In this document: piece after piece, positions 8,338-62,758 of the stretch
Layout of the letters: every line of letters starts with the position of its first letter
How positions within the stretch are numbered: the first letter of the stretch is position 1
Source of the DNA: Liolophura sinensis
Taxonomy: Eukaryota; Mollusca; Polyplacophora; Chitonida; Chitonidae
NCBI RefSeq assembly: GCF_032854445.1
Contig: NC_088300.1
Coordinates: forward strand, 36,127,608-36,191,607
DNA: 64,000 bases
Direction: 5' to 3'
The notes under the pieces: generated by a model
What the model saw: the letters and a program-made list of their open reading frames with translations, nothing else
Databases searched by the model: none
Told to the model about the DNA's origin: nothing
Made by a program: the position numbers and the translations under genes

Positions 8338-10544
8338 TGGTATTTTCTGAATGTTCAGTACCGTTGCCCCATAAATGCACGGGTCTGTATGCGATTCTAC
8401 TTTTGTGCTTTTATTGAATGATATTCCCACAATATAATACACATACATATTGTTTACATGTGATATAATTTGTTAATTAAGTATTGTGATTTTAAAGTAC
8501 ATGTGTCATCTCATTAATAATATAATTAATCATTGTATAATAATATAATTATTGTACTTGGAAAGATCTGCTTGGTTCATGTCGTTTGAAGTGCATTAAG
8601 GCCCTCAGTTTACATCATACTTTATGTACATATGTGAATATTTTTGGAAGTTCGTTTGTTGTCTAGATGGCACATATTTTTGTGACCTTCAGGTATGTAC
8701 TGTCCATTTTGTTCTGTAGTACTACAAGCAGCTATTGGGTGATTGCGCGTTATCACTTTTTGATGTATTTTAGAATGTATAAGTTCATCATACTTAGTTT
8801 ATTAAAAAATTCTAGATATTCACTCTAAGATCATATTATTACACTACAAAGTCAGACTTTTAGCTTCTAGAATTCATTAAAAAAGTTTTGCACCAAGTTT
8901 TAAATTTGACCTTTTATAAAAAAGCTTTATGGAATTACCAATATTGTATTGCAGATAAGAAAAAAAATTATGAAAGTTGTTTCTTGAATTAAAATGACTT
9001 CAATAAAACAAAACAGTCTGTTTTTATTGGTTCAGTCTGATTATTGTTAAGGACATATTTGTAATGATTTTATAATGTTACTTTGCTACAGCTAAGTCTT
9101 TGTGTCTGATGCCACATTTGTGTTACCATACTTGTGTTGCACATGTTAGGTTGTGCAGATAGAGAGTGCAGATGATGAAAAGTAGGCCTCTGTGCCTCTT
9201 CAAAGTACTAACGATGATCAGTGAACCTTGATCTGGAAAATCATATGTTGTGATACCCTTGTTATGGACTAATTTCACAAATTCATATATAACTGTATTA
9301 AAATTTAAAATGCTGAATCAGGTCAAAATTTGTTTGGAATTGTAACTACAATGGTTCAGTAGTTGATCTTGTTTATGTACGTGAGTAAATATGTAAAAGA
9401 TCACGTGTTAAATTTGGACAAATTTGTGGAATATACTCTTGTGCACTGTATTTTGAGTCATGCTGTGTTTTTCACCGGCTGTGCTTTGACCCATACTTAT
9501 GTATAAGTAATTAATTTCTCCACAGGAATCATGCAGTGGTTGTCCACAGTTACTGGTTATGACATTGACATACTTCTGTTGTTTGAATGTTAGTGTATTT
9601 GTGTATGCTGGCTTCTTCATTAATGGGAGTTGCTATAGGGATGTCTGTTTTGCTTGATTGATGATGGGTATATATCACACCACTCTTATCTGTTAATAGC
9701 ACTGATAGTACACACGTACTTATGTGTGATCAAGGTTCACTGATAACCCAGTAGCAATGAGTTAATAGCTTCACATCACAAAAAGCTGTTCAGAAACAAA
9801 ATTAATCGCTATAGTTGTGCTATCACTCCATTGGCAAGACATAAATTTTCTATATCAGCACATTTTGTTCAAACCATTGAAAATTATAGTTGTGCATTGC
9901 TTAATCATTGATTTTTACATAACGGCTTTGATAAGTGTGTGTTTATAATAGTCTTGAATGGAAGTTTTTGGCAGTATAGTGATATTTGTATTATGTAGAT
10001 ATTGTACCAGTGATACGCTAACATTGTCATAGGTTACTTATTACATATCTCACTGTTAGCTTTAACATTTACGTCCATTACTGATTGTTGCCATCTTTTT
10101 TTGTATAAACTGCGGTTTAAATATACATGCATTCATTGGAAGACTCAACTTTGTTCATGCATGCTTTTTCTTTGTGTTTTATTACAACATTTATGGATAT
10201 CAGTGACTTCTTTGTTTGGACTGGCGTGTTACAGAAATCTCTCATTTGTGAAGGCGTTTTTTAATGATGTTTACTACTTTCAAACTCAAGAAATTTTCAC
10301 TTTTACTATGGTGATCAGTTTAAAGTGTGGAGGGAGCTGACCTGTGGCAAGTTACTGACAAACTTTGTTCCCATAAGCACCCAGTGTCCTGAATGTTAGT
10401 GGAACAAACAACAAGAGGGGGAAATGCCCAGTTAGGCTTTTAGTTCTGCTTTCAGTTTCAGTTCCAGTTTTTCCCCTATAATCCTGACAGTTGCTAAGTG
10501 ATGTATTCATTTTTTTTATTTATGAATTTATTTTGTCCTTTTTT

Positions 10545-10797
10545 TTTCATTATTTGATTGGTGTTGTACACTGTACTCAAGAATGTTTAACTTATATGAT
10601 GATGATCAGCATTAGGGAGGAAGCTGGGCAGATTCCAGGGTAAACCCATGACCATCCGCAAGTTGCTAACAGACCTTCCGATGTATGAGCGCATAGGAAG
10701 CCAGCTTGACCTGGAACTGAACTCGTAGCGACAGCATTGATGAGAGGCTGCGGAGTCATCATGCAGCGCTAGCATGTGAACCACTCAGCTGCCGAGA
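10545..10797 (-). mobile_element. Diverged SINE, near full length
   Basis: Read on the minus strand it has the tRNA-like head (near 10797), the middle part 'ggatggtcatgggttt', and the tail 'ttcttgagtacagtgtac'. Many substitutions and the lack of a clear target-site duplication mark it as older than the copies at 88, 26469 and 55797. Confidence 0.82.
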
Positions 10798-11428: not shown

Positions 11429-11592
11429 ATCTCCGGCCGTACCCGGGAAGATCTGCCAGCAACCTCAGGATGGTTGTGGGTTTCCGCTGGGCTGTGCCTG
11501 GTTTCCTCCCACCACAACGCTAGCGCTGTTGGATAAGTGAAATATTCTTGTGTACGGCGTAAAACACCAATCAAATAAGTAAATAAATTAAA
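11429..11592 (+). mobile_element. 5'-truncated SINE
   Basis: The copy starts inside the SINE body at 'ctccggccgtacccggga' and runs through the middle part and the 'ttcttgtgtacggcgtaaaa' tail to an AAAT-rich end. The tRNA head is absent, as expected for incomplete target-primed reverse transcription. It lies 56 bp before the 1.3-kb array. Confidence 0.88.
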
Positions 11593-11648: not shown

Positions 11649-12967
11649 AACTAGAATGGATCTGCGAATAGCAGATCCTAGGCCGGGATCCCGGATCTGA
11701 TCGATGACGTTTTCCCCTTCATGTTCTGTGATCGAAGGACACATGTTCCATATACACGGCTTTCAAAGTTTCCATGCGACTTAACACCGTTTGTCACTGA
11801 GGCAGTCGGCCGGTCATATGCATTCCCTCGAATAGATCAGCGACCTTGATGATTCTACGCTATGCCCAGTGAAAAACGGTCGTCCCTTGGCAGACTTAGC
11901 CCACTATTTGTAAGAAATTAGGCAAAAACACGACCAGTGTAACAGCAAGTTTGTACATTCACATCTCAATCCACGACCTGCCATGCACAGACTCACAGCT
12001 CCACTCATAGCTCGGCCACCGTTAGAAAGTCAGCAGTTATACCAGGGCACATGTCCATGTCTGTCAATCACCCTGGTCTGTTTAACGTATAGTAAAGAGG
12101 ACGAGGTCTGCGCAAAACAAAGCTAACTTTTACAGGTCCACGTCGTTTGCTGTTGAAGTTAGATCTCTACGCCATCTAATAGAGTACTGGAGATAGATGG
12201 GAACTGGAATCAGTCATCCCACAACCGTTTCGGGAGATCACGGACAGTGTGGCCGAAACATCAGGTCAAATACTACAAACCCAGTCCAGTCCCCATCTAA
12301 CTCCATGTTAAAGCAATAGGATTCCCGTCTTTTTCTAAACAAAAAACCGTGTTGTCATATAAACGCTTCTAGCGAAAAAACTATTGATCGGAGCTCAAAT
12401 CTGTTGACGAATGCTCGAAAGAGCATGTCTTGGGCTACAATTTGGTGCAGGTTGCACATTTCTAGCTGTCATAGTTCTCGAGTTACAGGTCATTGAATTT
12501 ACGTCACTTTTTTAAGTTTTTTGCTCATATCTCAAAAAGTTACACAGATATGCCAAAAACTCAAGCAGATTCACAATCAGCAGCTCAAGATACATCAGAA
12601 TACGTTTAGAACAATTGAACTTTGAGAACTTTTTGTGACGTCACAAATTCGACCAATGGCGAGCTTCCAGAATTTTGACCGGAAGTGAACCATTTTCGCA
12701 AACTTTAAAGAACTCGTGACTTACTAGCTGCATGTCAAGTTTGAAACCGATCAGTTCATTGGTTCTGGAGAAGAAGATTTTTAAAGATTTTACACAAAAT
12801 CCAATATGGCGGCCGAACCACGTGACATAGCAAAAAAGTGGAGAATTTGTCCCGAGATATTCACCGCCACATTATGTGTGCAAAATTTCAGACCTGTATG
12901 TTGAACGGTAAAAAAGTTTCCATGCGAACAAAGTCGGTGAAAAAAAAAAAATAATAATAATAATAAT
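11649..12967. repeat. 1.3-kb array unit 1
   Basis: This is the most divergent unit. Its 5' edge follows 'ggaattaaatac' with no (AAT)n, so this is the true left end of the array. Near its 3' end it reads 'agtggagaatttgtcccg' where units 2-4 have an A-rich stretch followed by 'atataccccta' or 'atatacccctgg'. It shares 'tgtcaatcaccctgg' with unit 3. Confidence 0.93.
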
Positions 12968-14076
12968 AACTAGAATGGATCTGCGAATAGCAGATCCTAG
13001 GCCGGGATCCCGGATCGGATCGATGACATTTCCCTCTTCATGTTCTGTGTTCGAAGGACACATGTTCCACATACACGGCTTTCAAAGTTTCCATGCGACC
13101 TTACACCGTTTGTCACTGAGGCAGTCGGCCGGTCATTTGTATTCCCTCGAATAGATCGGCGACCCTAATGATGCTACGCTATGCCCAGTGAAAAACGGTC
13201 GTTTCTTGGCAGACTTAGCCCGCTATTTGTAAGAAATAAGGCAAAAACACGACCAGTGTAACAGCAAGTTTGTACATTCACATCTCAATCCACGACCTGC
13301 CATGCACGGACTCACTGCTCCACTGATAGCTCGGCCATCGTTAGAAAGTCAGCACTTGGACCAGGGCACATATCCATATCTGTCAATCTCCCTGGCCTGT
13401 TTAACGTATAGTAAAGAGTGCAAGGTCTGCGCAAAACAAAGCTAACTTTTACAGGTCCATGTCGTTTGCTGTTGTAGTTAGATCTCTACGCCATCTAATA
13501 GAATACTGGAGTTAGATGGGAACTGGAATCAATGTCATCCTACAACCGTTTCGGGAAATCACGGACAGTGTAGGCGAAAGCATCAGGTCAAATACTACAA
13601 ACCCAGTCCAGTCCCCATCTAACTCCATGTTAAATCAATAGGATTCCAATCTTTTCTAAACAAAAAACGGTGTTGTCATTTAAACGCTTCTAGCGAAAAA
13701 ACTATTGATCGGAGCTGAAATCTGTTGACGAATGCTCGAAAGAGCATGCCTTGGGCTACAATTTCGTGCAGGTTGCACATTTCTAGCTGCCATAGTTCTC
13801 GAGTTACAGGTGATTGAACTTACGTCACTTTTTTGAGTTTTTTGCTTATATCTCAAAAAGTTTTGAAGATACCAAAAAAATACAAGCAGATTCAGAATGA
13901 GCAGCTAAAGATACATCAGAATACGTTCGGAACATTTGAACTTTGAGAACTTTTTGTGACGTCACAAATTCGACCAATAGCGAGCTTCCAGAGTTTTGAC
14001 CGGAAGTGAACCATTTTCGCAAACTTTAAAGAACTCGTAACCTACTAGCTGCATGTTAAGTTTGAAAACGATCGGT

Positions 14077-14107
<31 letters not shown>

Positions 14108-14282
14108 GTTTTACACAAAATCCAATATGGCGGCCGAACCACGTGACTTAAGAAAAAAACAAAAAATATACCCCTGGAAAATCACCGCCAGATTATGTGT
14201 ACAAAATTTGAGACCTCTATATTGAACGGTGTTAAAGTTCTGCTGCTAACAAAGTCGGTGAAAAAAAAATAATAATAATAAT
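12968..14282. repeat. 1.3-kb array unit 2
   Basis: It shares private variants with unit 4, such as 'tttgtattccctcgaat', 'tgtcaatctccctggcc' and 'acttaagaaaaaaacaaa'. A strong internal inverted repeat is visible: ggagttagatgggaactgg at 13508-13526 and ccagtccccatctaactcc at 13608-13626, 19 bp with one mismatch. Confidence 0.95.
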
Positions 14283-15599
14283 AACTAGAATGGATCTGCG
14301 AATAGCAGATCCTAGGCCGGGATCCCGGATCGGATCGATGACGTTTTCCCCTTTATGATCTTTGTTCGAAGGATACATGTTCCACAAACACGGCTTTCAA
14401 AGTTTCTTTGCGACCTTACACCGTTTGTCACTGATGCAGTCGGCCGGTCATTTGCATTCCCTGATATAGATCGGCGACCTTAATGATGCTACGCTATGCC
14501 CAGTGAAAAACGGTCGTTCCTTGGCAGATTTAGCACGCTAATTGTAAGAAATCAGGCAAAAACACGACCAGTGTAGTAGCCTGTTTGTACATTCACATCT
14601 CAGTCCACGACATGCCATGCACAGACTCACTGCTCCACTGATAGCTCGGCCATCGTTGGAAAGTCAGCTCTTGGACCAGTTCACATGTCCATATCTGTCA
14701 ATCACCCTGGCCTGTTTAACGTATAGTAAAGAGGGCGAGGTCTGCGCAAAACAAAGCTAACTTTTACAGGTCCATGTCATTTGCTGTTGTAGTTAGATCT
14801 CTACGCCTTCTAATAGAGTACTGGAGATAGATGGGATCTGGAATCAATGTCATCCTACAACTGTTTCGGGAGATCACGGACAGTGTGGCCGAAAGCATCA
14901 GGTCAAATACTATAAACCCAGTCCAGTCCCCATCTAACTCCATGTTAAAGCAATAGGATTCCCACCTTTTTCTAAACAAAAAACGGTGTTGTCATTTAAA
15001 CGCTTGTAGCGAAAAAACTTTTGATCGGAGCTCAAATCCGTTGACGGATGCTCGAAAGAGCATGTCTTGGGCTATAATTTCGTGCAGGTTGCACGTTTTT
15101 AGCTGTCCTAGTTCTCGAGTTACAGGTCATTGAAGTTACGTAACTTTATTGATTTTTTGGCTGATATCTCAAAAAGTTACACAGATATGCAAAAAATACA
15201 ACCAGATTCGGAATCAGCAGGTCAAGATACATCAGAATACGTTGAGAACATTTGAACTTTGAGAACTTTTTGTGACGTCACAAATTCGACCAATGGCGAG
15301 CTTCCAGAGTTTTGACCGGAAGTGAACCATTTTCACAAACTTTGAAGAACTCCTGACCTACTAGTTGCATGTCAAATTTGAGAACGATCGGTTCAGTGGT
15401 TCTGGAGAAGAAGATTTTTAAAGATTTTACTCAAAATCCAATATGGCGGCCGAACCACGTGACATAGCAAAAAAAAAAAAATATACCCCTAGAAAATTTC
15501 CTCTAGATTGTGTGTGCAAAATTTTAAACTTCTATGTTGAACGGTGTTGGAGTTCTGCTGCTAACAAAATCGAAAAAAAAAAATAATAATAATAATAAT
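14283..15599. repeat. 1.3-kb array unit 3
   Basis: It groups with unit 1 at several positions ('tgtcaatcaccctgg', 'gacatagcaaaaaa') and has private changes such as 'ccctgatatagatcgg' and 'aaaatttcctctagattg' near its 3' end. Confidence 0.95.
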
Positions 15600-16709
15600 A
15601 ACTAGAATGGATCTGCGAATAGCAGATCCTAGGCCGGGATCCCGGATCGGATCGATGACGTTTTCCTCTTCATGTTCTGTGTTCGAAGGGACACATGTTC
15701 CACATACACGGCTTTCAAAGTTTCCATGCGACCTTACACCGTTTGTCACTGAGGCAGTCGGCCGGTCATTTGTATTCCCTCGAATAGATCGGCGACCCTA
15801 ACGATGCCACGCTATGCCCGGTGAAAAACGGCCGTTTCTTGGTAGATTTAGCCCGCTATTTGTAAGAAATAACGCAAAAACACGACCAGTGTAACAGCAA
15901 GTTTGTACATTGACATCTCAATCCACGACCTGCCATGCACGGACTCACTGCTCCACTGATAGCTCGGCCATCGTTAGAATGTCAGCACTTGGACCAGGGC
16001 ACATATCCATATCTGTCAATCTCCCTGGCCTGTTTAACGTATAGTCAAGAGGACGAGGTCTACGCAAAACAAAGCTAACTTTTACAGGTCCACGTCGTTT
16101 GCTGTTGTAGTTAGATCTCTACGCCATCTAATAGAATACTGGAGTTAGATGGGAACTGGAATCAATGTCATCGTACAACCGTTTCGGGAGATCACGGACA
16201 GTGTAGCCGAAAGCATCAGGTCAAATACTATAAACCCAGTCCAGTCCCCATCTAACTCCATGTTAAATCAATAGGATTCCAATCTTTTCTAATCAAAAAA
16301 CGGAGTTGTGATTTAAACGCTTGTAGCGAAAAAACTATTGATCGGAGCTCAAATCCATTGACGATTGCTCGAAAGAGCATGTCTTGGGCTACAATTTCGT
16401 GCAGGTTGCATATTTCTAGCTGCCATAGTTCTCGAGTTACAGGTCATTGAAGTTACGTCACTTTTTTGAGTTTTTTGCTTATATCTCAAAAACATTTGCA
16501 GATACAAAAAAAATACAAGCAGATTCAGAATCAGCAGCTCAAGATACATCAGAATACGTTCAGAACATTTGAACTTTGAGAAATTTTTGTGACGTCACAA
16601 ATTCGACCAATAGCGAGCTTCCAGAATTTTGACCGGAAGGGAACCATTTTCGCAAACTTTAAAGAACTCGTGACCTACTAGCTGCATGTCAAATTTGAAA
16701 CCGATCGGT

Positions 16710-16741
<32 letters not shown>

Positions 16742-16914
16742 TTTTACACAAAATCCAATATGGCGGCCGAACCACGTGACTTAAGAAAAAAACAAAAAAT
16801 ATACCCCTGGAAAATCACCGCCAGATTGTGTGTACAAAATTTGAGACCTCTATGTTGAACGGTGTTTGAGTTCTGCTGCTCACAAAGTCGGTGAAAAAAA
16901 AATAATAATAATAA
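15600..16914. repeat. 1.3-kb array unit 4, reaching the gap
   Basis: Very close to unit 2, including the 3' stretch 'tggaaaatcaccgccaga'. It ends in 'aaaataataataataa' directly at the N run, so it is essentially complete and the assembler stopped at the unit boundary. Confidence 0.95.
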
Positions 16915-17114
16915 NNNNNNNNNNNNNNNNNNNNNNNNNNNNNNNNNNNNNNNNNNNNNNNNNNNNNNNNNNNNNNNNNNNNNNNNNNNNNNNNNNNNNN
17001 NNNNNNNNNNNNNNNNNNNNNNNNNNNNNNNNNNNNNNNNNNNNNNNNNNNNNNNNNNNNNNNNNNNNNNNNNNNNNNNNNNNNNNNNNNNNNNNNNNNN
17101 NNNNNNNNNNNNNN
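16915..17114. other. Assembly gap (200 N)
   Basis: Exactly 200 undetermined bases, most likely a fixed-size placeholder and not a measured length. It separates the 1.3-kb array from the guanylate cyclase gene and may hide further array units and the 3' end of that gene. Confidence 0.99.
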
Positions 17115-19199
<2,085 letters not shown>

Positions 19200-19724: not shown

Positions 19725-20407
19725 CTTTCACTACTCATGTTGATATGGCCAATGGGCAAATACGGACAACGTTATCCGCTACTCATGTTGATAAGGCCAA
19801 TGGTGAAATACCGACAACGATACCCGCTTCTCATGTTGATAAGGCCAATGGTGAAATACCGACAACGTTACCCGCTACCCATGCTGATAGGGCCAATGGG
19901 CAAATACAGACAACGTTATCCGCTACTCATGTTGATAAGGCCAATGGTGAAATACCGACAACGATACCCGCTACTCATGCTGATAGGGCCAAGGGGCAAG
20001 TACAGACAACGTTATCCGCTACTCATGCTGATAGGGCCAATGGGCAAATGCAGACAACGTTATTCGCTACTCATGCTGATAGGACCAATGGATAAATACA
20101 GACAACGTTATCCGCTACTCATGTTGATAGGGCCAATGGGCAAATACAGACAACGTTATTCGCTACTCATGCTGATAGGGCCAATGGACAAATACAGACA
20201 ACGTTATCCGCTACTCTTGCTGATAGGGCCAATGGACAAATACAGACAACGTTATCCGCTACTCATGCTGATAGAGCCAATGGACAAATACAGACAACGT
20301 TATCCGCTACTCATGCTGATAGGGCCAATGGATAAATACAGACAACGTTATCCGCTACTCATGCTGATAGGGCCAATGGACAAATACAGGCAACGTTATC
20401 CGCGTGA
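19725..20407 (+). repeat. 48-bp minisatellite, about 14 copies
   Basis: The unit contains 'ctactcatgctgataggg' and 'acagacaacgttatcc'. It repeats every 48 bp with few substitutions and no frame-changing indels. Because 48 is a multiple of three, two plus-strand frames stay open (about 128 and 234 codons) with 16-residue repeats. It lies antisense within a cyclase intron, so I do not call a gene. Confidence 0.96.
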
Positions 20408-22442: not shown

Positions 22443-22680
22443 GACAGTGACTCACCTGTACAGTGTACACTTCTGGTCATGACAGCGATTCACCTGTACA
22501 GTGAGGATATCTTACCTTAGCAGCGATTCACCTGTGTAGTGAGAAGGTCTGTTCGTGACAGCGGCTAACTTTTCTAATGAGAAGGCCGGGTCGTCACAGA
22601 CTCACCTGTCTTCACCTGGGTTTGCAGTGACTCACCAATACGGTGAGAAGAGTTGACCGTGACATCGACTCACCTATATA
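22443..22680 (-). repeat. Degenerate 38-bp tandem repeat carrying splice-donor-like sites
   Basis: Seven diverged copies start at about 22443, 22481, 22520, 22557, 22594, 22624 and 22661 (steps mostly 37-39 bp). The plus-strand core is 'gacagcgactcacctgta'. On the minus strand most copies read 'tacaggtgagtc' or a near form, which matches a 5' splice site. The copy at 22661 contains the actual exon 1 donor (GTGAGT, 22673-22668). The other copies lie downstream, inside intron 1. Confidence 0.85.
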
Positions 22681-24073
22681 AAGTATTTAGAAGATCAACC
22701 ACTTGTAAAGGCGTACTTTTCCCTGCTATTTCCGTAAAACCGACGATGTCACTGAAGTAAATGGTCACGGATTCAAACACTTCAGCCTCCACTTGCTGCC
22801 TTAGTTTCAGCTGCTCAGCCACTTGCTGAGGAAGCATTTGATACAACAACGCCTCCGATCGCTTCTTCTCCAGAGCCAGTTCTCTCTTCTTCATTTCTAC
22901 TTTCTGGGTATAGGACTGCACGCGTTTCGTCATGGCGTATATCCTAGAGGCGTACCATATACTGAGAGCTATACAGGCTATTATGACGATGACAGCCACG
23001 AAACTATACACGACCATATCTCGTCGGGAGGAGGAAATGATTTCAGAGAGCATGTTATTGGTTCTCAAGGCAACGTCTGTCCGTAGGTCTAAGAGAATGT
23101 CGATGTAATGTGTAATAGTGGAGAACCAGAATAAACCTCGGGCAACTTTTTCCGTCACTGATAGCTGTTCACAAATGTCGGTGAAATTTGGGTTGCCGAT
23201 CAAGGCTTTCATTGAACTCAAGTTCCTCATTGCCTCTGCGTTTTCAGCCAGTTTTGCGTTCAGTTTATGCTGTAATTGCCTGTCGTACGTGAGTGCTGTG
23301 TCTACCATAACATCCCGCTCACCTTCAAGATTATAAAACCATTGAAGAGTTTTGCTGGAGAATCCACAGGCTGAAAACATGCTGGAGCCCAAGGCTCTTT
23401 GTATGCCCACGCTGTCTGATGCTTGAAGTAGTGCATTGTTTGCCACCTGTAACTTTTGCAGATTGCCAAACCCTTCCACCTTGAAAGACCTCATCATCCA
23501 TTGAATAAGAACCATGTTGTTGTCTGTGTAAAACATGATGTTTTCTTCAGTGGTCACAGAACGGTTGTTTACCCGTATGCGATGGACCCTCAGGTGAGAC
23601 AAGAAAGCCAAGACGGTGGGAATGGTTTTGTTCTCGTTCACCTCTATCGACGGCCAAAGAGTAACTTGACTTAGGAAACGATCTGTATCCGCCCGAGTTT
23701 TCTCCAGGGCCGTCTTCAGCTCTGACGTTGAGGCGTTTGCGCTAAGGAACATGGCAGACAGGCCTCTTTCCTTTTGCATGTTTCCAACAAGTGTAGCTAA
23801 ATGCAAGTTGTTTTCGATCATAGCCACCGAGGAGAAGGCCACACTAAACGTCCCTGTGACTTGTATGAGAGTACTGGTTGTAAAGCCTAAGAGTGCGAGA
23901 ACCGGCACGGCCATCACCATTAGCAATTTGCTCATTTGTTTACGCCTGTTTGCTTGCTGAGATATGACTTCCACAAACTCAGCCCGTTCCCCGCTCAATG
24001 TCGACGCAAAGGAGTGTATCCTGTTTGAACGAAACAAATGACTTCCGTTACTTTTTACATCAATCGTAGACAT
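22674..24073 (-). CDS. NIT-domain receptor guanylate cyclase, exon 1
   Basis: One 1400-bp exon encodes residues 1-466 and part of R467. After about 48 cytoplasmic residues comes a first span (about 50-72), then a NIT (nitrate/nitrite-sensing) domain (about 85-335) with its two ERG/RALG-type helix motifs, [10 protein letters not shown] (100-109) and [10 protein letters not shown] (225-234), then a second span (about 353-374). A coiled-coil signalling helix with [14 protein letters not shown] (409-422) leads into the class III catalytic domain, where FSDIVGFT carries the first metal aspartate (D442). There is no kinase-homology domain. The enzyme makes cGMP from GTP at a membrane, and NIT-cyclases of annelids have been linked to nitric oxide signalling. 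The start is the first ATG of the long frame. Confidence 0.95.
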
Positions 24074-26453
24074 GCTTCCCGCCTTCTTGTTTTTCTTATA
24101 GTCCAGTTTGATCTTCTTTAACGAACAAGATATCCAACAAAGAAAAACTCCGCAAGCACAGTGTCTATAGTCGTGATGTCGACCACGAAACGCCCTAATG
24201 CTTACTTACATTATTCCAAATGATGACACTCGGTGCAAAAATGAAAGGTTTATAAAAGGTTTGCCGTTCAGTGGTTTGACAAGAAACAATTATTATGGTG
24301 CAGACATCTTTCCATATCCGCCTCCACTGTGTAGCGGAACCTTGTCAATTTCCAGAAAAAAAATTTCATCACCTATTCCGAGTGTCCTCAAAAAATCAGT
24401 AGAGATAAACTGTTCGCTAGGAACTGAGGAACCGCCGTAGAGAATAGCTATGACAGGTATCTGACTCCAATATCTATGAGCAGTCTATGATTTACAGATC
24501 AAGGAATGACGTCTGCCCGACTAAGGTCTCCGCTTCACAATGACAACACAGTGCAAGACGCGACTGACGTCCTGCAGGGCTAGACCGCCGATGATCGATG
24601 AAAAAGGGACCGTAATGGGGAAGATGGAGAGAACCTGCTGTTCACACTCGTGTCTACGCGGTTCCAGAGAATTGATCTGTTTCCAGTGCACGTATTTTGT
24701 ACATGTATATCCCAGCGTGATCATGTAGTCAGCTCCGGTCATCAGCTGTTCGTGTTAATTATATTTCCACGTGTTAATTATATTTCCACCTAAGACAGAA
24801 GTGGGAGCCAACATGATCCTGACTTGAACTCACATCGATCACATTGGCGGGAGGCTCCGGAATCAATGTTCCGTCAGCACTCTAAACACTCGGTAAAAAC
24901 AAAAGAGGAAAAGCACAACTGTGGTGTTATACCAGAAAGGAGTGTCTACATGCAGAAGTTTGAGAATAAATGTTGTCAATCATACAGGTGATCGACGAAG
25001 CAGAGCAACTGTAAATCCGGTCCTCTAGAGAGCAGTACTTGCTGAACGGATCTTGCGAGTTTTGCCCAAAGAGTTAAATAATGATCGAGTTGTATACATA
25101 ACACTGTTCATCACTGGTAAAAGTCGCAGCTTCGGTTCGACAAATGTAACTTTCCAGAAGTACGGTGGCCCGTTAGTGGCATTCGAAGTTTTAAAATTTT
25201 TTTTACTGATTTACATTTATTCAGATTAGATTATTTCTAATGAAACTTATCATTATGAACAAAGTATTTGAAAATTTGCAATCTATCGAAACGAGGTAGA
25301 GCCTGCACTACACGTGCCTTGATACCACAATATGGCAGCACCGATGAGGCCACATACGGCTGCTGAGGTCATTTGTTTCACGTGTCCTCCCCACACCCCC
25401 GCCCTTGACTGATGCCTGGTACTCTTTCTTGTGTCTTTGATAAGAGGTATAGCTTCTGGAAATTTATCTGATATGCTATTGCGATAAGGTAAGGAATCCA
25501 GTCTATGGATGACCACAAAAAATATATTCCAAAAAAACAGTAGATTTCTCATTTACAAAACAGTATGTGGTAACTAAATGTAGAATAAAGTATATGATGA
25601 AATTTGTTTTTAGAAAATATTTTTAGGCTTGTCACTGACTGGTTTCAGCAGAAGAAGGGTGGTAACAGATCTAAGCGGTCATAGTCATTTAGTTCTGATA
25701 TTCTTAGTAATCTGCAATTCTTCCGATGCCTTGGGATACGCAATGTTTGAACAACCGGAAACTCGTACCCACCGAAACTCGTACCCTACTTTCATATGAC
25801 TATTAAAGCCAAATCAATGTCAGGGTGAGGTCAGCGGAAACAGTTGCCTTCTCGGGTTATAGAAATAAAATGGCGCCGCTTTCAAGTTTCTCAATATACG
25901 TGACCTTACTTACTGCGATATCACACAAAAATAAAAAATATGATTTATTGACTATGTAGGATACTTCATCTAAGCATACATACAATTGCCCTTCTGTTGT
26001 CTTTTAGTTTGAACTAAGTAGTCATCGAACGTCCCAGTATACATGTATACGGCCAGGCAGCCTTATGAACATAACACGAAAAGCCATGAACTGTAATCTG
26101 TAAACTTTGGTCAAAGAACTTCACTGGCCACTGAGTTTGGCTAACATTTTAAATATAAAATATGACTTAATGCCCGTATTAGCTGATACACTTTCGAACA
26201 ACTGGGCCCTGTATTATGGGTTACTGGTATTGATCGAGTGCTTCCGTATTGCCTGTGGGTATTGCCTTGAAGGTCGCAGAGAAAATGCTTGAATTATATG
26301 ATCCGAGTATTTTCTTAAAATAGTTCTGCTAGTTTCCTCATCTGCAACCGGCTTAAAGTGTCACTGGTCAGTTTTCTTTAGAGCCGCGTTTGTCTCCTGT
26401 TGTTTTTATTTGTGACATTATGACTCACACGATGCGTCCCCGGTGCCGGTCGG
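24074..26453. other. Gene-free region 5' of the cyclase
   Basis: It should contain the cyclase promoter and 5' UTR, but no TATA box or CpG-dense block stands out. A 19-bp direct duplication ('gtgttaattatatttccac') lies at about 24752-24789, and a SINE head at 24800-24884. No ORF here is convincing. Confidence 0.5.
24800..24884 (-). mobile_element. Diverged SINE head (tRNA part)
   Basis: On the minus strand it reads 'cggagcctcccgccaatg' and then 'gatgtgagttcaagtca', matching the anticodon-arm and B-box part of the SINE at 88. The 3' body is missing. Confidence 0.6.
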
Positions 26454-26468
26454 CCAATACGACTTTCA

Positions 26469-26732
26469 TTTATTATTTATTTGATTGGTGCTTTACGCCG
26501 TACTCAAGAATATTTCACTTATACGACGGGGGCCAGCATTATGGTGGGAGGAAACCGGACAGAGCCCGGGGGAAACCCACGACCATCCGCAAGTTGCTGC
26601 GAGATCTTCCCTCGTACGGCCGGAGAGGAAGCCAGCATGAGCTGGACTTGAACTCACAGCGACCGCATTGGTGAGAGGCTCCTGGGTGATTACGCTGCGA
26701 TAGCGCCCTAACCGACTGAGCCAGGGGGGCCC
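26469..26732 (-). mobile_element. Full-length SINE inserted into a 21-bp array
   Basis: The minus-strand copy has an intact A-box head ('ctggctcagtcggttaggg'), B box, middle part and (TTTA)n-type tail at its left end. The flanks carry an identical 15-bp sequence, ccaatacgactttca, at 26454-26468 and 26733-26747. The duplicated sequence is part of the 21-bp array unit, so the SINE landed inside the array and left one unit on its left. Confidence 0.95.
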
Positions 26733-29402: not shown

Positions 29403-29468
29403 ATTATCATGCATAAGCATATAGATTCCCTCTAAAATTATATATATCTGAAAATCAACTGTACACAT

Positions 29469-29668
29469 GTTTATTTACTTATTTATTTATTTATTTACTT
29501 ATTTATTTGCTCTTTTAGGCCGTACTCAACAATATTTTACTTACACGACGGCGGCCAGCATTATGGGGAGAGGAAACAGGGCAAAACCCGGGTAAAACTC
29601 AGGACCACCAGCCGCATTGGTGGGAGGCTCTTGGGTCATTGCTCCGCGCTGGTGTTAACCCCTTTGAG
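29469..29668 (-). mobile_element. SINE with internal deletion
   Basis: A (TTTA)n tail at the left is followed by 'ggccgtactcaacaatattt' and 'acgacggcggccagcattat', then a jump from the middle part directly to the head ('gccgcattggtgggaggctc'). About 60 bp between the middle part and the B-box region are missing. Confidence 0.85.
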
Positions 29669-35798: not shown

Positions 35799-38700
35799 CT
35801 ACAAAATACATAAATATATAAATTAATCTTTCATCGCATCAAAGATATTCTTGAGTACGGCGTAAAACAGCAATCAAATAAATAAATAAATATCATTGCA
35901 TCAAATATAAAGATAATATACAAGTAAAATTCAGGAAATTTGGCAATGTTATTTTACAGTGAGGTACCGTTCCAGCGCAGTAGTGGATGAATTGAGCATT
36001 GTTCTCTCGCCATGAATGAGTAATACGTTACAGTTTTTCCATAAAACGTCACAGCAGAAATAAACAAAAATACATTTTAGGCGGAAACAGTTCCTCGTTA
36101 ATTTACCTTTAAATTTTAAGCAGCAAGAACACTGGTTTATTACTGGTACGTATATGTTCCCTCAGATAGCTATCTAAACCATTATCATAATTATGGGGTA
36201 ACGATCATAATGAATAAAGGAAAAAGAAAGAACGCATGCTTACCTCAAACCCTCCCTTTTTACAGTATACGAATAAGGCCCAGCATGGGATAAGCATCAG
36301 AGGCGCGATTGCCATCAACCAGCCCATGCCCTGTGCCCAGCCGGGGTAGTAATAGGAGCTCATATGAGGCTCCTTGTATTGGATAATACTGAAGATAATA
36401 ATCACCTGAAAAATCAAAAACCAATATATTAATCATATGTAGTCATCAGTCTAGTTAGCAAAAGCTTATGTTCCATGATATTTATTACATCGCCGCTTTA
36501 TAGCTGATATATTGTTATATAGATGTTTTTATTTATTTATTATTTATTTGACCTTCTTAACCATCTCAATTAGTATTGTCCTCAGATCACGTCATATACG
36601 TGGAACACTACACAATAAGTTTATGACACAGGTGATTCCGTCAACTTCATATGAGTTTCGAGTTGACTTCCATAGTTTGTCTTTGAGGTAAAAAAACATT
36701 AAATATATGTGTAAACAGGTTAAGTACACTTACAAATATACACAGAGGAGAAAGTCCCAGCCAGCAGACCTTCCAGTAAATGTTTGGTTTGTGTCCCAAC
36801 ATGAGCTGAATATCGTAAGCAAAATTTTTGTAACCTGAAAAGGAAGAACAGAAACTTTATAAATGTGTTCTTGATTTGATTATGAGCTAAGAGATTATGT
36901 TCCAATCAATGAATTCGGCGATCATTTTTATTTGTTTTCAGTATCATTTCATCCGTGACCGTTCCATTGCCATATCATCATTTTAGAAGTAATATTATTT
37001 TATATCTCTACAAAATGCTTCACTGGATCAACTTCCTTCCAAGCAAAAATGCACAAATAAAACATTGAATCATTTTTCATTAATCAAATTATGTTTCTGA
37101 GAAATTCCTAGCAGTGTATAGTTCGACCCACCGTGTGGTGAATTAATGGAATACTTGAACAGTTCGGGATGTTCTGTACTTCGAAAAACGCCTTCATAAA
37201 AACGAAAGTTTACACGAGAAAGGTGCAGTGTAGAGTAAACAAACACTATGGTAATATACGGTAGTTATATAGTATGAAGGGTACATACCATAAAACCAAT
37301 TGATGGTGATGACTTCCAAAAAACCAATGAAAAGGAGAGGAAATCCGCTTAAGCTGTAGTCAACCAAGTTCAGTAGATAAATACCACCCTGGAAGGAGAA
37401 CAAGGAAAACTTTGATACATCGATCCTCCGTAAAAAAGCAAAGAGGAAGCTGAATGACGGCATAGTATGCAGAATCAGCACAGAAAAACTGTTGCACCGA
37501 CATAAGTAACAGTAAGTGGTTTTCCACTGAACTGATTTAGATTTTAAATAACACTAGAATAAATTTTTATTATTTTTTTTCAACGAAAAAAAGAAGAAGA
37601 GCATGTAAGTTTGAAAATAAATGTTTCATCCAGAAAAAAGAGCCGTGTTTAAACACGTAGACATACATATACGGCAGTGAACCGAACAGGAACATTCATT
37701 TTATCAGTCTATCCATAATATTGTGAGTTTGTATTTGGCTTATGGCAGGAAAAACATCTGACATACCTTGCAAACCATGGGAAGCCCGAGAAGAAAGGAC
37801 AAAAAGATGACAACTGTTCGGAAGATCAAAGACTCTCTCTGACCACTCAGGTATGTTTTGAATTCGTCAATAAAGGCGGTAAGGACACTCTCGACCATGG
37901 AAAACTGATTAAATAAAATCATAAAGAAGCAGTATTAAATGTAATGTATTATATAAAGCTCCATTTGAAATCGACAATACCAGAAATTTCAATCAATGTT
38001 TTGTAGCAGGGAAAGCCTTATAGTATCAAAATAAAAATGTGTAAGTAATCGATATAAATAACACACGCAGATACATTGATTCGTTCACTAACAACTCCGT
38101 GGTCGACGTCGTCTTTATTATCAACTAATTGTTGCAATAGTTCACGTCTTGTGACTCTTGAAAGCATCACAACTCAAAGAAAATGTCTTACCTGAGATCC
38201 AAAACCCAAGGTTGCCATCATGATGAAGAAGAAAATAGCCCACATAGGTGACACGGGCATTCTCGCAAGAGCCTCTGGGTAGACGATAAAGGCCAAACCA
38301 GGTCCTGTCAAGAACAAACGCTTACGGTGTGAAGGAAATGCCTAAATCTTAATAACAATATGGATGAAACTCCTTCGGTTACTCTCAGTGTGCCGTGCAT
38401 CCAATTTCATAGGGCATGTGGAAACGATTTTTTTTCTCCAGGGCGAATGCCTTTAACATAGACTTGAAATGTCATCCAATAAATATGAATGAATGTACAT
38501 TTTATACAGTTTTTTTTCAATCATCAGTTATCTGTATACAACTGAAACAGCATTATATTTATAGATAATGTATCAACAAATGTCAAAATAAACTCTTCTC
38601 TAAGTGAAAAATGATCGACCATATCGTCGAACAACAACCAAAGTAATAAATCAAAAGGCTTTTCTTACCTTCATCAACTACGTCCTTGACGTCTAACCCT

Positions 38701-41700
38701 TTCTCATGAGCCATGAACCCTAGGACGGAAAAGATGACAAAGCCGGCAAAGATACTTGTACCACAGTTGATAAGAGAGACGATCAGTGAATCTCTGTAAC
38801 AGTTGTTATTGAACTTGTTAAAACTGGACATGGCGATCAAACCACCGGAGCAGGTACTCAAAGAATAAAAGATCTGGGTAGCAGCATCACTCCATACCTG
38901 TAAAACAATGAAAAACAAATGATTATTACACGACATTAAAACTGGAGAGACGGTGGGGGCGCGGTCAAGTGCAATCTTTAAAGAAAGGAAACTTTTTTTT
39001 CTTTTGCCTGATGAAATGCATTGTGCGTCCAACGATGCTTTGGAAACAATCTGGCTATGGAATAGACCAGATGCATAGCATATATAGACGCTACTCTAAT
39101 ATTTAATTCCATTTTACTCTAATGTATTCTAAGGATGACTTGATTAGGCTTTAGCTCATTTAATAGAGACTGTAAATAATATCTCACCCTTGAATCTGCC
39201 AGTCTGGAGAAATCTGGTTTCAGATAAAACTCTATTCCCTTGCCAGCGCCTTCTAGTGTTACTCCACGGACGAGAAGAATGGTCAGCATGACGTAAGGGA
39301 AAATAGCGGTAAAATAGACCACCTGAAAGTAAGAGAATTCGTCAGACTCAGAACAAAATTTGAAGAATGCATAAACCTTCTCTGCTTAAGTGAAGAGATA
39401 TGACTTATTTGCAACACCAATACCTGTGCTTAGCAAACACCAACCTGTTTCTTTAAATTGAAGACCACTATCTCAAGGGGTAAAACCACTCTCATATCAC
39501 AGTTGGGAAAAAAAACCCATCCATGTATCTTAATTTTTTCTGCATATAACCAGTAGGCAAAGGTGTTTTTGCTTACCTTTCCTAGGGATTGAATTCCTCT
39601 GATAAGGCACACGTAGACAACAATCCATGCCAACAACAGGCACAGCGCAAGCTTCCAGCTGGGCAGGCCGAAGTCTTCCATGCCTGAACTCTGTTCCAGC
39701 ACGTATCGCCTGGAAAGTGCAATATGTTTATAATATATTCTGGGTTTAAATGTTAATGACTCCGTTGTTATTCATTTAACTTATGTTTAATGTTGTTTTC
39801 CGAATAATTTTTTTTTTAAAATTTGTGTGATGAATGCCAAGATTAGATGATGACAAAGGTTTGACCTTTTCAAATCAAGATGATAGTTTCAAAGAATTAA
39901 TATACCAGTCAAGTTTCTCAGGTGTAATAGGAAAATAATTTAGCCTTTGGTTACATCTATCCTCTGCAAGAGAATAACAATCAGCTGATCATTTCACATA
40001 ACTTGTTAACTATTGTGTTAACCAAGCACTCTGTCAGGCTAAACATTCCTAAATCGCCAGTGCATGGCACGAAATATCCAGATATTGTCTTGGATATTTA
40101 AACTAAAACCCGCCTGCAGGGGACATGCAAAGAACTTACTGGTAATACTCTTCAGCTGGGGTTTTCGCCTTCTCTACCGCAGTTTTGGCTGTGGAACTGA
40201 TGGCTTCGAGCACAGTGGTCGCCACTGAAACAGAAGATTATCATTTCATTGGATTACCCATGGCCAACGTGATCATGTAGCATCTCTTATACGTCACTGG
40301 CGCTCAAGTTTCCTCCACCAATAAAATCGATTGCCATTGTGTCAGGGAATACCCCTGGAGTATGGCGGTAGGTAAATAAATAAATCGATTTTTTAAAACT
40401 TTATACAACCCAAAACTTTGCAAGACGAGAAGTAAAAAAAACCCTACACCAAACACGAATTTCAGTGAGGTGTTGCTGGATTAATAACTAGGCACTGTAG
40501 CTAACAAAAAATAGCTTTAACAGAAGGCCATGTGGACAGAAACATTAATTGTCAGTACATGTACAATCATATCCAAACTCTTAAATCATGTCACTTGACT
40601 GACTTGACTTGACTCACCAGTGGTAGTTGTGGTTGTTATGGTAGTAGATGTGGTGTTATCGACGAGGTTGTAAGGCTTACAGGCCTTGGTATTCCACCAG
40701 TTGCCACATGTTGTCCACGGGAGTTCTCGGGTCATCGAGGCAAACAAGTAGAACAACGTGTGAGAGATGATTACGTTATAGTACAGCGTGACGATCCAAG
40801 AGACGATCACCATCGCGTATCCAAGACCTGTGACAAGAGACATATGTGACATACCGTGAACATTAATCTAGTCTCTTATATCAAAGAAATAACACTTGTG
40901 TTACTGTTATAAAGGATATTCAGCAGCCGTAAAATGGTGATAATATATATTCGCCAAGAATCGGTCCACGTGAAACTGTATAAAGGAGAACAACGTGTTT
41001 ATTTAGAGACACTGGAGATATCAAGCGCTTAATGACGACGACTGGCAAATAATTAAGTATATCTGTAAATGCTATGTTTTTGAGACAATAGAGGGGTTGC
41101 GCGTGACATCATCACCCTCATAGAACAATAGCCAGTCAGCCATCTAACATGTGCTGATGAAGCCGCAGCAATCCGATGTGGCTGCCCAAAAGTAGGTCAT
41201 GCAAGCATTCTACGTGGTCACGAGGAATAAATTTGTTCCAAAATAGCATTTCAGTTACATGTTAATTTGAAAAAACTTAGCAATTACAGAATTTGGTTTG
41301 AACCATACCTTTCATAAGAGGGCTAATACGCCAGATAGTGATAGGTCCGAGACTGGCAAACTGACCAAAGCCAAGCTCCATGAAGAACAAGGGAAGACCC
41401 ACACAGGCCAACATAATGATGTAAGGAATCAGGAAAGCGCCTGGAATTATCAAAAGATTTCATTTACTTATTTCGTACTTAATGCAGGAGGGCATGTACA
41501 GAATAGCTTCAGAATGGGCCACTAGATGTCTCCACTAGTATGACTGGGTCAGGTGACGATGATGTTCAATTGGTGCGTTTTTTAGCATTTAACCTACTGA
41601 CGATTGGATGACGTTTGTCTGAATAATATATGACGTCATCCCTACCTCCTACCCCGAAAGAATCATGCGCCGGTAGTGCTAATCTATCGAGAAACCATTT

Positions 41701-54105: not shown

Positions 54106-55502
54106 GCTATAATTATAATAACACCCGTTGCACAGGCAGCAATGTTCATATGTATAAGGTGTATAAGATTCGTATAAGATGTGAATGATTCTTATGCGAT
54201 GTACATATATCTGGAAACATTAAACTAACATTAAAAAGTAAATGCAACCTTAAATATAATATTTATTATTCCAAAGGGAGGTGGAAACAGATCTATAGGA
54301 CCACAGCAGTTATATTCTGACGAGACTGATAACTCTATATATATAAACTTAAATTTCTCACGCGGCCATGGGATGCGCCATGTTAGATCTAGGGAAAAGG
54401 GAAAGACGGTTGTCACGCCACTCGTACCCAAGTCACATATGGCTAAAATCAAAACATGATTGGCGTAAAGTCAGTGGATACAACTGTGGGTCATTGAAAT
54501 AACGTGCGCCTGTTCAAATTGATATACATTTTGGTCCAGTATTGTGTTTTGTTTTAAGTGATGAACTAATGCACCGCATACACTCAATAGCCATCCAGCC
54601 ATCCAGTAACTAAGCAACCACATAATCACCCATACATTCAACCATCCAGTGGCTAAGCAGCCACCCATTCACCCATGCATCCAGCGATCCAGTAGCTAAG
54701 CAGCCACCCAATCTCCAACACATCCAGCTATCCAGTAGCTAGGCACCACCCAATCACCAATACACTCAGCGATCCAGTAGCTAGCAACCACTCAATCTTC
54801 AGCACATCTGGCATCCAGTATCTAAACAACCACCAATCACTCATACATCCAGCCATCATGTAGCTAAGTAACCACCCAGTCTCCAACTTCAAATTGATAT
54901 ACATTTGGTCCAGTGTTTTGTTTGTGTTTTGTTTTAAGTGATGAACTAATGCACGCATACACTCAATAGCCATCCAGCCATCCAGCCACTAAGCAACCAC
55001 ATAATCACCCATACATTCAACCATCCAGTGCTAAGCAGCACCCATTCACCCATGCATCCAGCCATCCAGTAGCTAAGCAGCCACCCAATCTCCAACACAT
55101 CCAGCTATCCAGTAGCTAGGCAACCACCCAATCACCAATACACTCAGCGATCCAGTAGCATCACATCATGTAGCTAAGTAACCACCCAATCTCCAACTCA
55201 TCCAGCTATCCAGTAGCTAAGCAACCACCCAGTCTCCATCACATCTGGCCATCCAGTAGCTAAACAATCACCTAATCACCCATACATCCAACCATCCAGT
55301 ACCTAAGCAACCACTCAGTCACCCATTCATCCATTCATCCAGTATAGCTAAGCAGCCACTCAGTTACCAATACATTAAGCCATCCAGTTGCTAAGCAACC
55401 ATCCACCCAATAACCAATGCATCCAGCCATCCAGTACCTGAACAACCTCCCAATCACTCATACATCCAACCATTCAGTAGCTAAACAACCACCCAGTCTG
55501 GA

Positions 55503-55638
55503 ACACGTAAACATATTCAATTACTCACAGCCTGCATGTATTTCCTTGGGGAGATAAATAAAAGATATGGAGGAAATACATCATGTTACATTAGTATCAA
55601 AACTGGTGTTCCTTACGTAACAATATGGAAGCACCGTG
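55503..55638. repeat. Right copy of the flanking direct repeat
   Basis: 'aacacgtaaacatattcaat', 'actcacagcctgcatgtatt' and 'caatatggaagcacc' align with 53957-54105. It shows that the satellite and its flank were duplicated together or that satellite expanded between two copies. Confidence 0.8.
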
Positions 55639-55796
55639 CAGTCATATTCATAAAGGATACATTGATGTTGTGGTGGCCCTTTCTATTTTCTGCGATGTCT
55701 CGGATATGCAAGGTCTAAAAAATGCATTCGAAGCTTTATTAGGAAAACTTATTTTATGCATATATATACATTTGATCAATGTTATCTTTTCTTTTA

Positions 55797-56026
55797 TTTG
55801 TTTATTTATTTCATTGGTGTTTTACGCCGTACTCAAGAATATTTCACTTATACGACGGCGGCCACCATTATGGTGGATGGAAACCGGGCAGAGCCCGGGG
55901 GAAACCGACGACCATCCGCAAGTTGCTGGCAGACCTTCCCACGTACGGCCGGAGAGGAAGCCAGCATATGCTGGACTTGAACTCACAGCGGCCGCTAGCT
56001 GCCTACCAACTGAGCCACGGAGGCCC
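55797..56026 (-). mobile_element. Full-length young SINE in the satellite
   Basis: Complete minus-strand copy with head ending 'gagccacggaggccc', body and TTTATTT tail. A 12-bp duplication, tcttttctttta, lies at 55785-55796 and 56027-56038. The right copy matches the satellite phrase 'ttttgttttaagtgatgaa', so the target was satellite DNA. Confidence 0.95.
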
Positions 56027-56280
56027 TCTTTTCTTTTAAGTGATGAATGAATTCACTCTTATACTCAATAGCTAAACAACGATCTAATCACCAATACATC
56101 CAGCCATAGAGTAGCTATGCAACCGCCCATTTTCCAATACATCCAGCCACCCAGTAGCTAAGAAACCACCCAATCTCCAATACATCCAGCCATCCAATAG
56201 CTAAGCAACCACCCAATCCGCAATACATCCAGCCATCCAGTAGCTATGCAACCACCCAATCGCTTATATATCCGGCAGAT

Positions 56281-57902: not shown

Positions 57903-57995
57903 GTTTACTCCCACCGTAATGCTGGCCGCAGTCGTATAAGTGAAATATTCTTGAGTAGGGCGTAAAACACCAGTCAAGAATATAAATGAATATAT
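57903..57995 (+). mobile_element. SINE 3' fragment
   Basis: 'ctcccaccgtaatgctggcc', then 'ataagtgaaatattcttgag' and 'gcgtaaaacaccagtcaaga': the last third of the SINE, well conserved and 5'-truncated. Confidence 0.88.
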
Positions 57996-58950
57996 ATAAT
58001 ATAGTGTATAGTGTATTTATAGTTAAGATCATGAACAAGAAATGCCATGACCATGCACTAAATGGTCGGGTCATTAGGTCTGCTGACCCTCCTCTACCTA
58101 CTCTATATAGGGTGTGACAGTTTGCAAGTGTGACCCACTTCAAACCCCTTTCCTGAGGACCTCTGAGATTTCTCAATAACTGGGATTTCTCAATAACTAG
58201 GTCACGTGTAGATACATAGGTGTCGCGAGTGAGGTTAAAAGGAATTTCAATACATCCCACTGACATCAGGGATCAGGGGTCGCTTATATCACATGATATT
58301 CTCGTGTCTTATATAGACAGGTTTAGACACACCGCTTGACCATTCCATCACAATAAACAATAAAATACACCTCCTATGTAACCTTTATTAAACTTTCATG
58401 TTTACTTTGCTTGCATTGTGAGCAATGATCGCAGTAAAATTACCGAAGTTGGTATATATAGAAAATTGTGCCAGCTTGTAGTTACATTCATGATTTATAC
58501 ATTAAGTTTACTTTATTAAAGATGTCTATAACGATCAACCACTTTTGCCAGAAAATTTTTCATGGATATTTCCTTCGCCTGAGTGTTCTCGCCACAATAT
58601 ACTGACATACAGCCAACGTGGCATTAAAGCCAAATCATTCAAGTATTCATGAATTCAACACGTAAGCCCATGTGCATGCATTTCTTACACTTTTCATTTT
58701 CACGCCCTCTTCCCCTTTCTCTCTGTGGCTCATTGATAAAGTAGTTTTTTCTTCATTTCTTCACATTAGGGTGTCGTCTGCAAACAACCCACCCTTAGCG
58801 ACGCCCCTGGGATGAATTCTTCAGGCAAGATGTGAACTAACCATGAAAGTACGTAATAAAACTTGATGCAATCTCCATTTAAAACAGTCAATAATTACCA
58901 AAGAATGCACATAGTAAGTTATGATCGTGTCATCGCTTAATCGATCCATA
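57996..58950. other. Gene-free region
   Basis: No supported exon. The minus-strand frame 57823-58266 reads through the SINE fragment and has no domain. Confidence 0.5.
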
Positions 58951-62408: not shown

Positions 62409-62524
62409 ATGGCAAGAATATTTGGCAGATCAATGAGGAGAGTAAAATGTTTACTTCTCTGTGTTTTACTGACAATTCTTGTCTGCCTCTATTTGGCGTT
62501 TACTCCACTACAAGACACAGCTAG
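62405..62524 (+). promoter_or_regulatory. Overlapping upstream ORF
   Basis: ATG at 62405 with G at -3 opens 39 codons and stops at TAG 62522-62524, in a different frame from B4GALT7 and across its start. Its context is stronger than that of the main ATG (T at -3), so it could lower translation of the enzyme. Confidence 0.4.
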
Positions 62525-62758
62525 AGATGAAGCCAGAAATGTTCATTCCAGTGTCCATGACAAAGCTGCAACTTACGGGGAAGAGCTACCTGACAAGGGA
62601 GATAACCCTACATGGGGACGTCACAAGCTAGCGGTCATTATACCATTCAGAGATAGACTTGAGGAATTGCTTGAGTTTGCTCCTCTTCTTCATGAATTTC
62701 TTGCCAAGAAAAAAGTTCGTCATAGGATATTTGTCATCAATCAGATTGATAATTTTAG
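62409..62758 (+). CDS. B4GALT7: Beta-1,4-galactosyltransferase 7, first coding exon
   Basis: Encodes 116 codons and part of R117. A short basic cytoplasmic end (MARIFGRSMRRVK) is followed by a signal-anchor span (about 14-31) and a stem, then the catalytic start WGRHKLAVIIPFRDRLEELL (69-88) and KKKVRHRIFVINQIDNFR, which match B4GALT7 orthologues. The enzyme adds the first galactose to xylose in the glycosaminoglycan linker of proteoglycans, in the Golgi, as a type II protein. The exon ends at donor ag/gtaagt in phase 2. The DVD metal motif and the rest lie beyond the window. A second in-frame ATG (62433) could also serve as start. Confidence 0.96.

Follow-up and report, generated by a model that had tools for sequence, protein, structure and literature searches.

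In the Drosophila telomeric retrotransposons HeT-A and TAHRE, which lack long terminal repeats (LTRs), a sense promoter sequence in the 3′ untranslated region (UTR) faces the next element of the head-to-tail array, and sense promoter sequence is also present in the 5′ UTR (PMC5537684). The I element ends in TAA repeats (PMC3747384). Helitrons have a hairpin close to their 3′ CTRR end and are inserted at A/T sites, between the two bases (PMC4067079, PMC5148889), and tandem Helitrons have been reported (PMC5148889), while HINE elements have been linked to tandem repeats in an oyster (PMC7492417). Here we describe an array of four non-coding units of about 1.3 kb within a 64-kb stretch of animal DNA (Liolophura sinensis, contig NC_088300.1; hereafter the window). 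Each unit starts with an invariant hairpin-bearing terminus, contains a promoter-like module near its 3′ end, and finishes in an A-run followed by TAA repeats. We favor the reading, to which we give a probability of roughly 0.45, that the unit is a non-autonomous, retroelement-like element on the + strand that has been amplified in tandem.

The array spans positions 11651–16914 and consists of unit 1 (11651..12969, 1319 bp), unit 2 (12970..14284, 1315 bp), unit 3 (14285..15601, 1317 bp), and unit 4 (15602..16914, 1313 bp), all on the + strand and arranged head to tail, as the first-pass annotation of this DNA had described. Unit 1 forms the left edge of the array, and its 3′ part is the most divergent. 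Unit 4 abuts a 200-N assembly gap (16915..17114) that conceals the right end of the array; a BLAST search within the window detected nothing of the unit past the gap. The 3′ tails read A12(TAA)6 in unit 1 (12940..12969), A9(TAA)5 in unit 2 (14261..14284), A11(TAA)6 in unit 3 (15573..15601), and A9(TAA)4 in unit 4 (16894..16914), the last being cut by the gap (all + strand). An A-rich or simple-repeat 3′ tail is expected of a non-autonomous retroelement mobilized by non-LTR machinery, and its presence in four of four units, as A9–12(TAA)4–6, suggests spread by the reverse transcriptase of a long interspersed nuclear element (LINE).

The left edge of the array falls on a unit boundary. The internal junctions read (TAA)n/CTAG and the flank left of unit 1 reads GGAATTAAATACAA/CTAG; only AA is common to the two, so that homology ends at the unit boundary, give or take these two bases. 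An edge placed at random phase would fall within 2 bp of a unit boundary with a probability of ~0.004, whereas an element with fixed ends is expected to produce exactly this coincidence. The boundary therefore weighs against a plain long-monomer satellite, or a local duplication of ordinary non-coding DNA, that grew by unequal exchange and has no mobile origin. We consider such a satellite unlikely, although the array is all that is seen of the unit: no single copy lies in the 58.5 kb of window outside the array, where the remaining BLAST matches of the unit (E up to 1) are all 31 bp or shorter.

At its 5′ end, the unit opens with a 47-bp terminus (11651..11697 in unit 1, + strand) that is the same in units 2–4 and is the longest invariant run among the four. 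The terminus begins with CTAG, followed by the hairpin GGATCTGC-GAATA-GCAGATCC at 11658–11678, with an 8-bp stem, and by the 12-bp palindrome CCGGGATCCCGG at 11683–11694. The terminal hairpin, the adjoining 12-bp palindrome, and a 16-bp palindrome around a cyclic-AMP response element (CRE) in the promoter-like module are unchanged in all four units. Read on the minus strand, the same terminus becomes the unit end GGATCTGC-TATTC-GCAGATCC-ATT-CTAG, with T following CTAG at the edge of the array as well as at all three internal junctions, as at a Helitron 3′ end (CTRR, then T). Each unit holds the hairpin pattern once, for a total of four in the window, and none of 100 shuffles contains it. Such an architecture would suit a non-autonomous rolling-circle element of the Helitron type, read on the minus strand and copied in tandem through rolling-circle or circular intermediates, an origin that we nevertheless find doubtful. 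On that strand CTAG gives way to TT(ATT)n and a T run at all three internal junctions, where a Helitron would have 5′ TC after A, and the outer 5′ end is hidden by the gap; the distance from the hairpin to the end is 7 nt, as compared with the reported 10–12 nt. The subterminal inverted repeats of HINE elements (11–15 bp) were not found in an ungapped comparison of the first 80 with the last 170 bases of the four units (best score 6 per unit, against a mean of 6.5 for 100 shuffles of the unit 2 ends). Moreover, the A/(TAA)n tract would require a separate cause.

The promoter-like module lies ~110–300 bp ahead of the tail and ~135–335 bp ahead of the unit end. Using a list of nine kinds of core-promoter motif, counted within 220 bp, we found five kinds in unit 1, four in unit 2, five in unit 3, and three in unit 4. 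CRE (TGACGTCA), YY1 (ATGGCGGC), and USF (CACGTGAC) motifs are present in all four units and an ETS motif (CCGGAAGT) in units 1–3; the CCAAT core (CGACCAAT) is present in all four, and the strict CCAAT pattern in units 1 and 3 only. In unit 1 the cluster (12636..12826, + strand, as are the others) comprises CRE at 12636, CCAAT at 12651, ETS at 12679, YY1 at 12803, and the USF E-box at 12819, with a second CCAAT at 12756. Its counterpart in unit 2 (13957..14147) has CRE at 13957, ETS at 14000, YY1 at 14124, and USF at 14140, along with a CCAAT core at 13971 that departs from the strict pattern. Unit 3 (15273..15463) has CRE at 15273, CCAAT at 15288, ETS at 15316, YY1 at 15440, and USF at 15456. 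Unit 4 (16590..16780) retains CRE at 16590, YY1 at 16757, and USF at 16773; it has the CCAAT core at 16604, and neither the strict CCAAT nor the ETS pattern. When 5000 first-order Markov sequences were generated from unit 3, preserving dinucleotide content only, three motif kinds occurred together in 7 and four in none, and the other 58.5 kb of the window holds three kinds at most.

The terminus and the promoter motifs are also where the units differ least. With columns positioned on unit 3, 1 of the 77 terminus and motif columns is variable, compared with 208 of 1246 elsewhere (Fisher 3e-5), and equally low variation was seen in only 4 of 20000 random block sets; across the whole unit, variation is unevenly distributed (p = 2e-4). 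Conserved blocks of this kind are expected if the units descend from copies that needed transcription and recognition. They are not predicted by neutral drift of a satellite, and together with the array edge on the unit boundary they strengthen the case for an element. The anatomy is firm with respect to the unit boundaries, the left edge, the conservation of terminus and motifs, the tail, and the tree of the units described below.

A promoter-like cluster in every unit would likewise suit a tandem host non-coding RNA gene, or a duplicated promoter region, kept for its transcript. In favor of this possibility, each unit has an internal inverted repeat (14822..14942 in unit 3, + strand; 21-nt arms and 79-nt loop; same place in the other units) with fold z-scores of −2.1, −2.9, −1.5, and −3.4 in units 1–4. 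We judge it quite improbable. Rfam returned no family at gathering score anywhere in the window, and its sole match around the array at E up to 1, to CrcZ, is at chance level (16.4 bits against a cut-off of 95) and was rejected. ARAGORN, with the bacterial code, found no transfer RNA (tRNA), and in units 2 and 3, the two that were scanned, most 100-base windows fold at the level of shuffled sequence. The units have 5–6 perfect hairpins each (stem of at least 6) where 3.2 ± 1.8 are expected from 300 simulations of unit 3 (95th percentile 6). Given this count and the mostly shuffle-level folding of units 2 and 3, the first-pass description of the unit as hairpin-rich is weak as a general statement, though the terminal hairpin and the two palindromes are real.

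The units show no sign of encoding protein. Variable sites are distributed 67/64/62 by frame, without codon periodicity. Among N-free stop-to-stop frames that overlap the array, none exceeds 81 aa, which agrees with the earlier claim that the units have no open reading frame (ORF). Pfam (E up to 0.1) gave no match for the two array ORFs searched, of 83 stop-to-stop ORFs, a result that also speaks for a satellite; a coding unit was rejected on the lack of periodicity and of matches for these two ORFs. A hammerhead retrozyme or Penelope-like element was rejected as well, as the strict hammerhead core CTGANGA is absent from both strands of all four units and no ribozyme is among the Rfam matches.

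Pairwise comparison of the units gave 108 differences over 1312 aligned sites for units 1 and 2, 128/1314 for units 1 and 3, 117/1309 for units 1 and 4, 112/1313 for units 2 and 3, 54/1312 for units 2 and 4, and 113/1310 for units 3 and 4. Units 2 and 4 are thus by far the closest pair (54 differences versus 108–128 in the other five), as the first-pass annotation had proposed, citing three shared private variants as examples; each of these has precisely two occurrences in the window, one in unit 2 and the other in unit 4. The split of units 1 and 3 from units 2 and 4 is backed by 24 sites, compared with 7 and 4 for the two alternatives, and was recovered in 1997 of 2000 bootstraps. The tree, (u1:0.056,(u2:0.019,u4:0.025):0.021,u3:0.056), has depths of 0.056 for units 1 and 3, 0.040 for unit 2, and 0.046 for unit 4. 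In it, units 2 and 4 group as sisters, and their stem forms nearly a star with units 1 and 3, a shape that counts in favor of the non-autonomous element. The proposed weaker pairing of units 1 and 3 therefore holds as a split and fails as a kinship: they are the most distant pair of all, and the sites they share may all sit on the stem of units 2 and 4.

This asymmetry bears on the dimer duplication that had been suggested for the array. A single duplication of a dimer at equal rates predicts the same distance between units 1 and 3 as between units 2 and 4, whereas the observed values are 128 and 54 (binomial p = 4e-8; 0 of 100000 equal-rate simulations). When columns above 1180, the fast 3′ part, were removed, the values were 94 and 49, an imbalance reached in 21 of 100000 simulations. 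A single dimer duplication is rejected under equal rates in both cases; gene conversion could rescue it. A simpler history, which fits the near-star depths, has three older lineages followed by one event, spanning two steps, that joined units 2 and 4, a link that gene conversion could likewise produce. Such a link, two steps apart, is also the expected product of out-of-register exchange in a satellite. The 3′ part of the unit may be a generally fast region, a partner of different origin may have been involved there in unit 1, or both: 21 of the 55 private changes of unit 1 fall in columns 1181–1303 of the 1323 in the alignment (p = 3e-8), as do 9 of 56 in unit 3 and one each in units 2 and 4. 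Within this part of unit 1, the stretch 12840–12955 diverges strongly from the other units and is a possible chimera or conversion. It holds, at 12916, the 12-mer GTTTCCATGCGA, whose other occurrences, in units 1, 2, and 4, lie close to unit position 118.

If the unit is a non-autonomous retroelement-like element, each unit would represent a single, discrete non-coding element in + orientation, with a fixed 5′ end (CTAG and terminal hairpin), a body of ~1.3 kb, an RNA polymerase II promoter-like module, and an A(9–12)(TAA)4–6 tail. Transcription, its direction, mobility, and the LINE partner are what we infer from this plan. The reverse transcriptase that spread the copies would have come from a LINE, for example one of the I clade, with TAA repeats at the end of its RNA. 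Head-to-tail order could arise from new insertions at the TAA tail of older copies, from local duplication, or from both, and a later exchange in a two-unit step would have joined units 2 and 4. Tandem order points the promoter-like module, which sits close to the end of its unit, toward the following unit, so that each copy could be transcribed from the module of its upstream neighbor.

Several observations weigh against this interpretation. The window offers a single locus, with neither a second one nor a dispersed single copy in the 58.5 kb outside the array, whereas an element mobilized by non-LTR machinery would be expected to have scattered copies, many of them truncated at the 5′ end. 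An invariant run as long as 47 bp arises somewhere in the unit in 5% of column permutations (p = 0.05), and since this is borderline taken alone, it is the position of the run at the terminus that counts. The promoter motif columns by themselves are less constrained than the terminus (1/44 variable versus 208/1279; p = 0.01), and the three motif kinds of unit 4 are matched both by the 7 of 5000 simulations and by the rest of the window. Because motifs and blocks had been noticed before they were tested, these figures are generous. A transcript starting near YY1, which lies 158–167 bp from the unit end, would leave a new copy with ~160 nt of the upstream unit, yet unit 1, the one outer 5′ end visible, starts cleanly at CTAG without such a tag. 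AATAAA is absent from the + strand of all four units; past unit position 1000 the weak variants AATATA and AAGAAA occur in units 2–4 and none in unit 1. A strict RNA polymerase III box B, as a tRNA-derived short interspersed nuclear element (SINE) would have, is missing from both strands of all four units. The proposal of a non-autonomous element amplified in tandem, made in the first-pass annotation, is still the best reading, strengthened by the edge phase and the conserved blocks, without the single dimer duplication attached to it.

A more far-reaching version of this reading, which we regard as improbable, is that of a protein-free retroelement dependent on tandem order, in which the array rather than the single copy propagates and the 3′ module of one unit transcribes the next. 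By analogy, and at similarly long odds, such a propagating array might be a non-telomeric, non-coding counterpart of HeT-A promoting in tandem. If the module is active, the array would show a mobile element becoming a transcribed satellite, with tandem order alone supplying the promoters. If it is inactive, the array would be a clear example of a repeat with a long monomer that preserves at its edge a trace of mobile descent. In both cases, one locus becomes available on which to test whether mobile elements seed tandem repeats, an idea discussed for the Pacific oyster (PMC7492417).

Searches for relatives of the unit drew on several collections. No relative was found among viral contigs (three exact patterns and one peptide scan, in which none of 8 candidate stretches was confirmed), no relative of unit 3 among phages and plasmids, and no match in prokaryote genomes (one exact pattern); these collections are not animal genomes, so the misses say little. 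No title naming the unit was among the literature matches listed, and the element may well be already known in Dfam or Repbase.

Three protein-coding Pfam matches lie in the same 64 kb as the array. On the minus strand, a 511-aa open frame at 22673–24205 corresponds to part of a NIT-domain guanylate cyclase, containing the nitrate/nitrite-sensing NIT domain, the end of the HNOBA linker, and the start of the guanylate cyclase domain, and 38586–39095 is a fragment of a neurotransmitter:sodium symporter; on the + strand, 62409–62759 is the N-terminal region of a family 7 glycosyltransferase. Seven of the ten window ORFs searched gave nothing above the curated Pfam cut-off.

Other repeats are also present in the window. 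A dispersed repeat occurs in both orientations at 68–333, 10541–10773, 11430–11592, 18742–18838, and 26464–26704, with further copies at 29467–29612, 35845–35898, 55774–56047, and 57903–57999. Judged by eye, one of its ends has tRNA-like promoter boxes and the opposite end an A-rich, (AAAT)n-like tail, and it looks like a tRNA-derived SINE family; one copy ends ~60 bp left of the array. This SINE-like type is known from molluscs and points to a molluscan or other lophotrochozoan host. A 48-bp minisatellite at 19731–20403 (14 copies, 90% matches) is open in frame, with 16 codons to the repeat unit, and sits inside a 255-aa stop-to-stop frame. At 54592–56261 there are ~21 copies of a 43-bp repeat and, ~570 bp further on, 4.5 more, with a SINE-like copy between the two blocks. 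A 78-bp tandem repeat at 63016–63571 (7 copies, 93% matches) lies ~260 bp right of the glycosyltransferase ORF.

Set beside the systems described at the outset, the array resembles canonical and tandem Helitrons in its minus-strand hairpin and CTAG end followed by T, and in that tandem arrays have been reported (PMC5148889). Unlike canonical Helitrons, it lacks a 5′ TC at its three internal junctions, places the hairpin 7 nt from the end, and has an A/(TAA)n tract between copies. HINE elements (DINE-1, Pearl, and the bivalve Cg_HINE), which are Helentron-associated, share a terminal palindrome and a simple-sequence tract with the units (PMC7492417), whereas subterminal inverted repeats were not found in the units, and here the whole unit repeats rather than an internal 140–180 bp core. 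With HeT-A and TAHRE, the array has in common the head-to-tail order, the A-rich tail, and the 3′ position of the promoter or, here, of the promoter-like motifs. The unit here is, however, 1.3 kb without a long ORF, and its putative promoter is a motif cluster. A telomeric setting is unsupported, given the protein-coding matches in the same 64 kb and a scan of the window that, with up to 2 mismatches allowed per 18 bases, gave no TTAGGG run. HeT-A-like copies carry a 3′ tag of the upstream element at their 5′ end, and unit 1 lacks the tag that such transcription would leave. The I-clade LINEs and non-autonomous elements with TAA tails differ in that no reverse transcriptase and no long ORF were seen in the units; what these elements and the array have in common is the tail, which takes the form A(9–12)(TAA)4–6 in all four units.

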